Part shown: positions 5,239 to 8,490 of the stretch, in pieces
How positions within the stretch are numbered: position 1 is the first letter of the stretch
Layout of the letters: every line of letters starts with the position of its first letter
Origin: Candidatus Fermentibacterota bacterium
GTDB taxonomy: Bacteria; JAFGKV01
Assembly (NCBI GenBank): GCA_030620115.1
Contig: JAUXFG010000115.1
Location: 1 to 12,526, forward strand
Length of the DNA stretch: 12,526 bases
Reading direction: 5' to 3'
Notes under the pieces: model-generated
What the model saw: only the letters and a program-made list of their open reading frames with translations
What the model was told of the DNA's origin: nothing
Databases searched by the model: none
Program-made: the position numbers and the translations under genes

Positions 5239-5252
5239 TCAACAGCTCATCA
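5221..5252. repeat. 8-bp tandem array, four units
   Basis: The units GCTCATCA, GCTTATCA, GCTCAACA and GCTCATCA follow each other at 5221-5228, 5229-5236, 5237-5244 and 5245-5252. The stop codon of the radical SAM gene (TGA on the minus strand, 5241-5239) lies inside the third unit. The last residues of that protein are therefore encoded by repeat DNA. Confidence 0.85.
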
Positions 5253-6657
5253 TCCCCACGCGTTTCGCGTGGCTTCCTATTCCGGCTAGAGCTGGCGCCA
5301 ATTCCTCATAGCCATGTGCTCGAAAGTAGAGCGGGCATGCACCATGGCAGAGCGCGAAGTGGACACAATGGCGGCACTCTGGATGGGCGAAAGACTTGTC
5401 CCGCAAGGCACGAGCCTTCGGGCCCCACCACAGTTCCTCAAATCCCTCATTGAGTAGGCTGCCAACAGGCTCCCTCCAACTGGAGCACGGCAGGAGCCGC
5501 CCATACGGATCGATGGAGAGAAGCCCTTCACAGGCACTGCATCCTTTATTGCCGAGCCCGTGCGCCACTGGATTGAATAGACAGATAGGGGTTGGTGAGT
5601 ACCACATGAATCGGACGCCTGCCGTTCGAGCTGATGTCAGAATCTCCCCGAGAATTGAAGGCACCTCGTGGTACTTGACCGCCAGGTCCGGATCTATTCC
5701 ACGCCCGGCTGGAATGACAAGATTCATGGAGAAACGATCAAACCCCAAGGATTTCACAAGCCGAGGCATACCAGAGAGACTAGCCCGATTCTTGCTGCAC
5801 AAGGTTGCATGCGGATGGACGGTGATTCCCGCCTTTTTCAGAGCCAGCAATCCATTCACCGATGCCTGGAATGCACCGTCAACTCCCACAATGTCATCAT
5901 GGATCTCCGCATCCGGGGACTCGATGCTGACTTGCGCGGAAGCAAGGCCCGCCTTCTTGAGACGCTTTGCACTACGCACGCTGATACGCGTCCCGTTCGT
6001 GATGAGATTCACTCTCATGCCCAGTCTCTTGCTGGCATATTCGATGAGATCGGCAAGATCCGAGCGGAGCGTGGGTTCTCCCCCTGTGAACGAGACACTG
6101 GGCGCCTCTGCATCATGGCGTATGATGTCAAGGACTCTCATGAACTGCGCCGTATCGAGCTCTTGGAGCTCTGGATCCTCTTCTTCCTCCCCGATATCGC
6201 GGCATGAGGCGTAGCAGAAGAGACATTTGATATTGCAGCGCCACGTAAGGGCCACCTCAGAGAGCACGGGAAGCTCGATGTAGCCGAGTTGGAATGACTC
6301 ACGATCCAGACTTTGCGATTGATACTCATCACAGACGCCTGAACCCAAGAGCATCGAGAGATCGAAAAAGAACGACTCGAGTTCATGCCCGGCGCTTTCA
6401 TCCTCATATCGAGCCTCAAGGATGTCTTTGATCTTCCCGCCGGCCAAGAGATAGGATAACGCTTTGGCGCCTGTTGAATTGAGTTTGAAGGCTTCATTCG
6501 GCATCCTGATCAACACGTTGTCAGTGAGTCTCACATGGACATACGGTCGTATCCTTTCGACGAACCCATCAACCCATCGCAGCTTCTTCACCCACGTGCC
6601 CATCATCTTGGACATTTCATCACACCCTTCATGCGCTTCCACGTAGGGGCACGGCAT
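5239..6657 (-). CDS. radical SAM/SPASM maturase with fused N-terminal PqqD-like recognition domain
   Basis: Predicted cytoplasmic iron-sulfur enzyme that reductively cleaves S-adenosylmethionine to modify a peptide or protein. Numbering is from the outer ATG at 6657 (472 residues). Residues ~30-110 look like a PqqD/RRE domain (HVRLTDNVLIRMPNEAFKLN, then helices), which in relatives binds the leader of a substrate peptide. The radical SAM core carries CNIKCLFCYAS (C141, C145, C148), TGGEPT (191-196), NLITNGT and VSIESPD. The SPASM region has C376-x9-G386-x4-C391, then C428-x2-C431-x5-C437-x3-C441, which would ligate auxiliary clusters; the usual last Cys may be C472. The start is uncertain: the outer ATG lies in a palindromic repeat (6647-6666), and ATG 6615 (MSKMMG) may be the true start. 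No Shine-Dalgarno is strong. It lies 147 bp downstream of the Cys-His-repeat membrane protein, its likeliest substrate. The family call is firm; reaction and substrate are inferred. Confidence 0.9.
   Translation of the reverse strand: MPCPYVEAHEGCDEMSKMMGTWVKKLRWVDGFVERIRPYVHVRLTDNVLIRMPNEAFKLNSTGAKALSYLLAGGKIKDILEARYEDESAGHELESFFFDLSMLLGSGVCDEYQSQSLDRESFQLGYIELPVLSEVALTWRCNIKCLFCYASCRDIGEEEEDPELQELDTAQFMRVLDIIRHDAEAPSVSFTGGEPTLRSDLADLIEYASKRLGMRVNLITNGTRISVRSAKRLKKAGLASAQVSIESPDAEIHDDIVGVDGAFQASVNGLLALKKAGITVHPHATLCSKNRASLSGMPRLVKSLGFDRFSMNLVIPAGRGIDPDLAVKYHEVPSILGEILTSARTAGVRFMWYSPTPICLFNPVAHGLGNKGCSACEGLLSIDPYGRLLPCSSWREPVGSLLNEGFEELWWGPKARALRDKSFAHPECRHCVHFALCHGACPLYFRAHGYEELAPALAGIGSHAKRVGMMSC
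5256..5272. repeat. perfect hairpin CCACGCG-TTT-CGCGTGG at the 3' end of the radical SAM gene
   Basis: A 7-bp perfect stem with a 3-nt loop, inside the last codons of the radical SAM gene (encoding HAKRV). There is no T-run after it on the minus strand. It may be another dispersed palindromic repeat that has become part of the coding end. Confidence 0.7.
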
Positions 6658-6666
6658 GCCGTGCCC
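6647..6666. repeat. 20-bp perfect palindrome overlapping the radical SAM start codon
   Basis: GGGCACGGCATGCCGTGCCC is its own reverse complement over all 20 bases. Its central CAT/ATG is the outermost possible start codon of the radical SAM gene. It could be a dispersed palindromic repeat (similar sequences are, from memory, common between genes in environmental bacteria) or an operator for a dimeric regulator. The overlap with the start codon makes that start suspect. Confidence 0.8.
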
Positions 6667-6804
6667 AGGGCAAGAAGCTGCTATTCATGTAGTTCTCCGT
6701 ATCAATCGCGCAGCTCAGTGGCACAGCTCAGTCGCGCAGCCCAGTGGCGCAGGCGTCCCTGCCTGTGATCTCCCCCTGCCTGTGATCTCCCCCGAGTTCT
6801 CGCA
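6667..6804. repeat. spacer with two tandem arrays between the Cys-repeat protein and radical SAM genes
   Basis: Two arrays are visible. A 13-bp unit (CGCAGCTCAGTGG and close variants) occurs three times at 6709-6747. A 17-bp unit (CTGCCTGTGATCTCCCC) occurs twice without mismatch at 6759-6775 and 6776-6792. No terminator-like hairpin with a T-run is seen, so read-through from the Cys-repeat protein gene into the radical SAM gene is possible. Confidence 0.8.
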
Positions 6805-8490
6805 TCAGTGGCCTCCCCCGCTGACACATGCAGAGTGGCACGCGGAATGGCACGCAGAATGACAGGCGGAATGGCACGCGGAATGGCACGCAGAATGACA
6901 CGCATCGTGGCATGCGGCATGGCATGCATTGATACCGACCGCATGAAGACCAAGCGCGCGCTCATAGGTCACCACGTCAGGATCCACAGGGAGGGAAGCC
7001 TCGAATTCGTGGTCGTACCTCTGCGGATCGAAGCGGCGATGTGTGCCGTGATGAAAGTGGTACCAGTACCACCACGAGCCTGACGGGTGTGGATCAAGCT
7101 GCTCCCCGGCCCGCGCCTCTTCCGTCTTCCCAGGTGAGCCAAATGCCTTCTTGATCTTGTCGTAGTAATAGCCCTTGGTCTCCTCGATATCGCAATCCCA
7201 CGCCTTCTCCTGGACCAGCCGCACGATACGCTGCAGGAGCGACTCGAGTTCTTCCCGGTCAAATCGTCCATCATCCTTGGCGGCCTGGAACATCCAGTAC
7301 TCATGCTGCCCCAGACTGCTCTCCGGCAGGGGCGAGGGCCTCGTAATCTCTACCACAAGCGGATCACGTGATATGACGCGCAGCATGTCCTGCTCTACGA
7401 GCCGCGACAGCATAGTGGAGAGAATCTGCTTGAACGGAACACCGATGAAGACCGCTGCCTCCACGGGATCGAGATCCTTTGCTATCTTCCCTTCTTGTCG
7501 AAAGGTGGAGAGCTTGATCTTCGGCGGCTCCCAGTCTTCTCGGGCCCACTTCACGCCATCGAGCTGCGCGTGGGCCCGGACCATGGATCGGTGCTTTCCA
7601 CTCGCGCCGGCCACCACCACAAGCAGCAAGAAGCCAAGACCGGCGATGAGAGTGAGCCGCGGCGTCGGTCTCCACGCCTTCTTCGATCCATCTGTGGAAC
7701 CGGCCTCCCTCTCCCTTACATCGGCCGGGATGGATTCCTGGTCGCCCCGGGGATGATCAATCACACCTGGGAAGACCGTGGCGTTGACATACTGCTGGAT
7801 ACGAAATGAGTAGTTCGGAGAAATATTTTCCTTGTGAAGCAGGACTTCGATCCATCGCTTGTTCTCGAGCTCCTTGACGCGGTAGTCGATTCTGTACTCT
7901 TGGTTCATCCACCGCTCTGTGGCGAATCCTTCTCCCAGCAACTCCCCAAGCACGGTGTCCCGATCAATAGCCGACGCGAGAAAGGAAATGGGATAGATTA
8001 CCTTGACGGTATAATGGTCAAGCCGCTGATCCCACGCCGTGGGAGCCCAGTTGAACACTACCAATTCCCGGCCATCCGCGGCAACCGTGGTGGCTATATA
8101 GCCTGCCTTCGCCATGTTCGCGGCGAATCGAAACCTATAGGTGACCTCGCCATGTGAAATCCCTTGCCCGTCGGCGAGAATGATATCATAGGTCTCGTGG
8201 TCCATTCGTTTGATATCAACGCCATACGTGGCCCCGTGGCTGTCCACGGCCCCCGCATTTGCGTAGTCAAAGCTCGGTTTGAGCCGACCAAACCCGCTGA
8301 AGTAGAAGCCATGGAATTCGCCGGAGGTGACCGTGTACCTGACCACATACTCGACCATGGCTTTGCCGTCGGGGAAAAGGATAACCTCTGTTTCCACAAA
8401 CCGAAGATTGCCTGTGCCGGCCTGAGCCGTTTCCGGCAGGCCCAGAAGCCCCGCCATCACTATCCCGAGCACAATGTATCGCCTCATCAT
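6805..8490 (-). CDS. DUF2207-like membrane protein with C-terminal CHSA (Cys-every-fourth) repeat tail
   Basis: Predicted inner-membrane protein of 561 residues. Residues 1-24 are a signal peptide (hydrophobic core, then AQA|G). Residues ~26-240 are a beta-rich extracytoplasmic domain of the DUF2207 type, one TM helix spans ~279-297, and residues ~298-520 are cytoplasmic, including a winged-helix-like segment ([20 protein letters not shown], 341-360) and a Trp/His-rich patch ([12 protein letters not shown], 473-484). The C terminus has Cys at 523, 527, 531, 535, 539, 543, 547, 551 and 555: CHAA, CHDA, six CHSA, then CVSGGGH. Only one other Cys (C433) is seen. By topology the tail faces the cytoplasm. 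GAGAGGGG precedes ATGATG; the second ATG (8487) has better spacing. The next gene encodes a PqqD-rSAM-SPASM enzyme, so the tail looks like a modification substrate. A metal-binding tail is the main alternative. Function is otherwise unknown. Confidence 0.85.
   Translation of the reverse strand: [561 protein letters not shown]
6820..6924 (-). repeat. 12-bp coding tandem repeat encoding the CHxx tail
   Basis: On the minus strand eight 12-bp units plus a terminal Cys-Val-Ser encode CHAA, CHDA, six CHSA and CVS. Codons vary silently between units: Cys as TGC or TGT, Ser as TCC or TCT, Ala as GCG, GCC or GCA, His as CAT or CAC. The protein repeat is perfect over six units while the DNA is not, which points to selection on the peptide rather than fresh slippage. 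Confidence 0.9.

Follow-up and report, generated by a model that had tools for sequence, protein, structure and literature searches.

A cysteine-repeat tail on a DUF2207-like membrane protein as the candidate substrate of a co-encoded radical SAM/SPASM enzyme in several bacterial phyla

Radical S-adenosylmethionine (SAM) enzymes that combine a SPASM region with a RiPP recognition element (RRE; RiPP, ribosomally synthesized and post-translationally modified peptide) have mostly short peptides as known substrates, and thioether formation is one well-known cysteine chemistry among them. In a pairing known mostly from Actinomycetota, MNIO (DUF692) enzymes accompany TIGR04222 membrane proteins whose C-termini are rich in Cys (PMC12452194), and the radical SAM enzyme QhpD makes thioether crosslinks in a working protein (PMC8172795). 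Our analysis of a stretch of 12,526 nucleotides from a Candidatus Fermentibacterota bacterium (contig JAUXFG010000115.1 of assembly GCA_030620115.1; the whole stretch is called the window hereafter, and all its genes mentioned here lie on the minus strand) revealed a candidate enzyme–substrate pair. The first gene (8490..6805) encodes a 561-aa protein, termed tail protein, with a signal segment, a DUF2207-like ectodomain, one transmembrane (TM) helix, a putatively cytosolic domain and a Cys-His repeat tail. The second (5239..6657; the start may be at 6615) encodes a 472-aa radical SAM/SPASM enzyme with an N-terminal RRE-like domain. An original prediction from the sequence of the window had proposed that this enzyme modifies the tail, and a check of the open reading frames (ORFs) confirmed the position and strand it gave for both genes. 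Sequence comparisons support the assignment of the two proteins as enzyme and substrate, from which we infer the covalent modification itself, and the wide distribution of the pair within a three-gene cassette suggests that the substrate is the tail of a full-size membrane protein.

A contig search with four starting homologues identified 11 loci from Aminicenantes, Fermentibacteria, Eisenbacteria, CSSED10-310, Bacteroidetes, Acidiferrobacteraceae, Desulfobacterales and Gemmatimonadota. Ten of them reach the C-terminus of the tail protein, and all ten show the same tail followed by an enzyme homologue. Moreover, a third gene lies downstream of the enzyme wherever the contig extends far enough; its copy in the window (4889..3912) encodes a 325-aa protein with hydrophobic TM segments and a C-terminal domain, for which no family match was obtained. 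In most relatives no gap separates the tail gene from the enzyme gene, whose start codon either shares nucleotides with the tail stop (TGATG, TAATG) or directly adjoins it; between enzyme stop and third gene a 4-nt overlap is frequent, an arrangement that resembles a tightly coupled operon. In the window, tail gene and enzyme gene are separated by a 147-bp spacer (6658..6804) containing a dispersed repeat (core about 6708-6793) with dozens of copies in the host genome. Since the ATG overlapping the window tail stop is open for only about 25 codons, the window enzyme must restart downstream. The enzyme is thus, as originally proposed, the next gene downstream on the same strand, but the intervening repeat-bearing spacer and the conserved third gene had gone unmentioned. 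The evolutionary distances of the three genes match one another (Mantel r 0.87-0.94, P 0.0001), and the closest relative of each window gene is found in an Aminicenantes cassette rather than in the cassettes of its own family, which fits transfer of the cassette as one unit.

Co-occurrence of tail and enzyme extends beyond linked genes. In 297 genomes, mostly metagenome-assembled like those of the other surveys, from the phylum of locus L013, the profiles of tail protein and enzyme were searched separately, and CHxA tails and enzymes with E <= 5.1e-132 were found in the identical ten genomes. One of these, G248, has a variant tail, which combines CHSA and CAC spacing in a single protein (L075, 3540-6677). 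Overall, 30 genomes in this survey carry an enzyme, namely the ten close ones and twenty more distant ones with E-values of 1e-69 to 1e-86. In five surveys outside this phylum, enzyme-bearing genomes were found in Gemmatimonadota (4), the CSSED10-310 phylum (5), Bacteroidota (1), a gammaproteobacterial class (2) and the phylum of the Desulfobacterales genome (1; the Desulfobacterota survey used a stricter enzyme threshold of 1e-120), and every one of them has a CHxA tail. Together with genomes G000, G001, G002 and G104, this amounts to 47 enzyme-bearing genomes, and a Cys-tailed membrane protein is present in each of the 47. Two genomes, G352 and G206, carry a tail gene without an adjacent enzyme; they were rejected as counterexamples because the sole close enzyme homologue and the third gene are located together on another contig. 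Among the genomes examined we therefore found neither a CHxx-tailed protein lacking the enzyme, which is adjacent where the contig allows and elsewhere in the genome if not, nor a close enzyme relative with an unrelated small peptide partner, the two outcomes which the original prediction had named as contrary to it. Unrelated genes adjoin these two tail genes: the neighbour in G206 is presumably methionine-synthase-like, and in G352 a cation-efflux (CDF) gene (PF01545, E 3e-35) follows the tail gene after a few nt (L065, 2399-3430), a possible hint at metal. Genome G916 has a second, partial enzyme at a contig edge, and the enzyme match is broken by a stop in L018/L135 (TAG in L135) and in G124 (L092, TGA), reflecting either assembly error or decay.

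The window tail (residues 523-561, 6808..6924), which is the proposed modification target, consists of eight CHxA units followed by CVSGGGH. Its nine Cys at a spacing of four, with His directly after the first eight, agree exactly with the count in the original prediction. CHSA-type tails occur in more than 20 genomes from at least seven phyla; a match to simple repeats (G155, L058) was set aside as chance. Across 33 aligned codons of 26 tails, pairwise comparison gave 6148 synonymous versus 447 non-synonymous differences, and the repeated unit is spelled in four to seven ways within most genes. The tail is therefore under purifying selection: its codons vary freely and its residues barely, and the array is old and kept at the protein level.

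A second enzyme clade is paired with a different tail type, CACACACAGCACACAGGGR. Eighteen of the twenty distant enzymes adjoin membrane proteins that end in GGGCACACACAGCACACAGGGR or close variants (CACA tails), with one ORF between tail gene and enzyme in G130, and the remaining two (G164 and G139) lie ahead of a shorter DUF2207-like protein that carries SCACACVSCACACACAGGGG close to its end. At L124 (5295-7626) and L125 (4974-7349) the enzyme comes first, accompanied by a short DUF2207-like protein with its Cys-Ala tail near, not at, the C-terminus. The members examined are built alike, with a signal segment followed by an ectodomain, a single main transmembrane region and the Cys tail; DUF2207_C gave a weak match in one CACA protein, and the third cassette gene was not found at CACA loci. 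In the enzyme tree, a branch with 100/100 support splits the CACA and short classes (97/93 and 100/99, respectively) from the CHSA class, and therefore tail type tracks enzyme clade; the outgroup rows of this tree are fragments, and their placement is not interpretable. CHSA and CACA tails have in common only Cys, Ala and Gly, which argues that a shared chemistry should involve Cys. Of the three target residues named at the outset, Cys, His or Ser, Cys is thus favoured, whereas His and Ser are unlikely as a shared target since the CACA core lacks both.

The body of the tail protein is conserved as well, with whole proteins being 37-59% identical to that of the window. For PF09972 (DUF2207), the window protein reaches 24.0 bits, just short of the gathering score of 24.4, and 10 of 10 relatives match (best E 4e-7), which is compatible with the DUF2207-like label of the original prediction. 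TIGR04222 matches residues 334-428 below its cut-off (E 0.0025; 17.5 versus 43 bits) and four of ten relatives at E<1 (best E 1.2e-7); judged by these profiles, the tail proteins belong to the same broad superfamily as the TIGR04222 membrane proteins. A sequence search of solved structures with the tail protein gave no match. The N-terminus reads as signal-peptide-like (residues 1-24, 8419..8490), and the relatives likewise have a hydrophobic N-terminus followed by AG. Hydropathy, on which the topology call is based, indicates only one TM helix, at about residues 277-297 (7600..7662), with positive residues after it; the tail is therefore predicted to lie on the cytosolic side, where a cytosolic enzyme could reach it.

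The radical SAM/SPASM identity of the enzyme, as originally assigned, is borne out by Pfam matches in the window protein (PF04055, E 9e-25; SPASM, E 7e-8) and in its relatives (PF04055 and PF13186, 10/10 each). The CX3CX2C motif of the SAM-binding [4Fe-4S] cluster (6214..6237 in the window) and the CX9-15GX4C and CX2CX5CX3C motifs of the SPASM region (5365..5541) are present in 43 of 43 family enzymes checked. In an AlphaFold2 model built from ten sequences, the RRE/PqqD-like domain (residues 26-90 of the model; 6346..6540) consists of three strands followed by three helices. The sactipeptide maturase SkfB is the best solved fold match to this model (E 1e-12, Z 23.6), covering RRE and core (model 24-428 on SkfB 12-387), and SuiB matches over its full length (1-439, Z 21.5). 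SkfB is also the top solved relative by sequence (E 9e-32, core and SPASM region only). A match to prokaryotic viperin (PADLOC pVip) was rejected because it covers only the radical SAM core (residues 137-257, E 9e-20).

Taken together, we consider it likely, from the conservation and co-variation of the sequences, that Cys residues of the predicted cytosolic tail are the target of the enzyme. The DUF2207-like protein would sit in the membrane such that the ectodomain faces outward and the Cys-rich C-terminus reaches into the cytosol. The enzyme may then dock through its RRE domain on the cytosolic part, and the repeated tail Cys would be modified by 5'-deoxyadenosyl radical chemistry. By analogy with related maturases, this chemistry is probably thioether formation, so that crosslinks from Cys sulfur to carbon would be the most likely product. 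Ala alpha-carbons are our preferred guess for the acceptors, a role for which thuricin CD and ruminococcin C provide established examples (PMC8172795); Cys-Ala thioethers as the specific product are proposed tentatively. The end product may be a membrane-anchored protein with a rigid, sulfur-rich ladder, with metal binding or redox sensing as possible roles. The third, membrane-embedded protein would be a dedicated accessory, perhaps a tail-binding chaperone, although this role is a guess: a weak likeness of its C-terminal domain to type III secretion chaperones and YbjN (Z 6-7.6) is within the range of chance and was discarded, and a profile comparison gave no similarity that would make it a relative of the tail protein. 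In L064 (7336-9265, G168) it is encoded by two tandem paralogues.

Several points weigh against this reading. The co-occurrence counts are not independent, since the genomes are related within clades. The AlphaFold2 model has a mean predicted local distance difference test (pLDDT) score of 75, with weak stretches in the core. PF05402 (PqqD) was matched in three of ten enzyme relatives, marginally (best E 0.0095), which is in line with the known incompleteness of this model for RREs outside pyrroloquinoline quinone (PQQ) clusters (PMC7470986); the PqqD-like domain of the original prediction thus stands by the structure model, in which SkfB and SuiB align over both domains, and is weak by sequence. 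Moreover, the nearest NCBIfam families are AhbD and NirJ2, far below their cut-offs (AhbD/NirJ: 136.4 versus 500 and 126.2 versus 500 bits). Finally, Cys-His repeats suit metal binding, and the conservation of the tail could reflect merely that.

A first alternative shares with our favoured reading that the tail is the substrate, and assumes a reaction other than thioether formation: conversion of Cys or Ser to formylglycine, as by anaerobic sulfatase maturases, epimerisation, or crosslinks through His or Ser. We regard it as possible but somewhat unlikely. Anaerobic sulfatase maturases, which act on Cys in whole proteins, are among the fold matches (Z about 20) and His-Xaa-Ser systems provide an existing precedent; however, the best two-domain fold matches are the RRE-bearing maturases SkfB and SuiB, and the lack of His and Ser in the CACA core speaks against the His/Ser variant.

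According to a second alternative, the tail stays unmodified and serves as a Cys/His arm for metal binding, and the enzyme makes or installs something different, for instance by processing a small molecule or metallocofactor for later use by the membrane protein. Besides the suitability of Cys-His repeats, the cation-efflux gene in L065 and the proximity of the haem b/d1 enzymes among the named families are in its favour. However, the sister tails have no His and contain only Cys, Ala and Gly, yet their partner enzymes belong to that same family. The enzyme possesses an RRE-like domain, its closest matches by both sequence and fold are peptide maturases, and every named family scores far below its cut-off; an assignment as haem-synthesis protein was rejected because the likeness is confined to the core. 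We therefore judge the metal-arm explanation improbable.

RRE-dependent maturases normally act on precursors that undergo later cleavage, and the pair could thus represent a precursor-type RiPP system in which the modified tail is split off and leaves the membrane protein as a peptide product. This appears very unlikely, as neither a protease nor an exporter gene belongs to the conserved cassette at the loci examined, the tail hardly changes from phylum to phylum, in contrast to toxins or antibiotics, and a body conserved at the identities given above is not a throw-away leader. A chance neighbourhood or mistranslated DNA repeat, suggested by the dispersed repeat between the genes and the repetitive tail DNA itself, can be dismissed given the recurrence of the pair over many phyla, the synonymous variation of the tail codons and the retention of unlinked enzymes.

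Other genes surround the cassette. In the window, the region 8725-11097 encodes a papain-family protease with a lectin-like domain, a choice-of-anchor J domain and a FlgD-like/T9SS-like C-terminal region, and 125-3520 encodes a protein with DUF7948, SBBP repeats, GEVED and a weak T9SS-type sorting tail. An 834-aa protein without Pfam match is encoded directly upstream of the tail gene in L066 and L068; an M17 aminopeptidase is also found upstream in L066, and ORFs of similar size occur upstream in L067.

The enzyme shows the features of RRE-dependent radical SAM/SPASM maturases: the core, the SPASM region, an RRE by model, and a co-encoded candidate substrate in all 47 genomes. Like SkfB, SuiB and AlbA, it has an RRE-like N-terminus, a CX3CX2C core, a SPASM region and a Cys-rich target encoded next to it. 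In contrast to these systems, the candidate substrate is the tail of a roughly 560-residue membrane protein and not a small peptide, and the window enzyme scores below the cut-offs of the named families; none of the NCBIfam families listed for it reaches its cut-off. Sactipeptides likewise differ, being made from small precursors with a removable leader as opposed to a membrane protein of 500-600 aa. CXXX-repeat systems (TIGR04117) resemble the pair in their radical SAM partner and in having Cys at every fourth residue, but with 12.6 bits the tail stays below the cut-off of 50, and with 98 positions that model is too short for a DUF2207 ectodomain plus TM helix. In the case of QhpD and QhpC of quinohaemoprotein amine dehydrogenase, the similarity is that the radical SAM enzyme would act on a functional protein and not on a natural-product peptide; however, QhpC is the subunit of an enzyme and uses Asp and Glu as acceptors, which are absent from most of the CHSA repeat.

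Furthermore, neither a Cys tail nor a radical SAM partner is part of the Pfam definition of DUF2207 (PF09972). In the open literature, subscription papers being outside the search, we found no paper joining DUF2207 and radical SAM and nothing relevant on CXXX repeats with radical SAM or on TIGR04117/TIGR04115. The original prediction had not been able to place the pair in a system known to it by name, and a description of the pairing was likewise not found in this literature. Our data suggest that in bacteria the tail of a large membrane protein undergoes chemical remodelling, in a manner not described in the literature searched.

Besides SkfB and SuiB, the closest analogues are the TIGR04222-MNIO systems (PMC12452194), which share related membrane proteins, C-terminal Cys-rich low-complexity tails and an adjacent modifying enzyme. 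A radical SAM partner for TIGR04222 proteins is not discussed in the main text of that paper. There, the maturase is an MNIO and the tails are Ser/Gly-rich and predicted to be periplasmic, whereas here the maturase is a radical SAM enzyme and the window tail is predicted to be cytosolic; DUF692 is absent from the Pfam matches of the six large window ORFs, and the neighbour of the tail gene is the radical SAM gene. As a tentative overall view, one to which we attach less than even confidence, a dedicated RRE-radical SAM-SPASM enzyme would make DUF2207-type cytosolic tails into repeated thioether ladders. These would constitute a class of protein modification separate from peptide natural products, with at least two chemotypes (CHxA and CACA) and a permanent membrane-anchored metal or redox centre as product, and would be the radical SAM counterpart of the TIGR04222-MNIO systems. 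The pair offers a testable enzyme–substrate system, in which comparison of CHSA and CACA tails could show the reacting residues, as well as a possible function for DUF2207/TIGR04222 membrane proteins. Moreover, the comparison suggests that one type of Cys-tailed membrane scaffold is served by both MNIO and radical SAM maturases, two families unrelated to each other.

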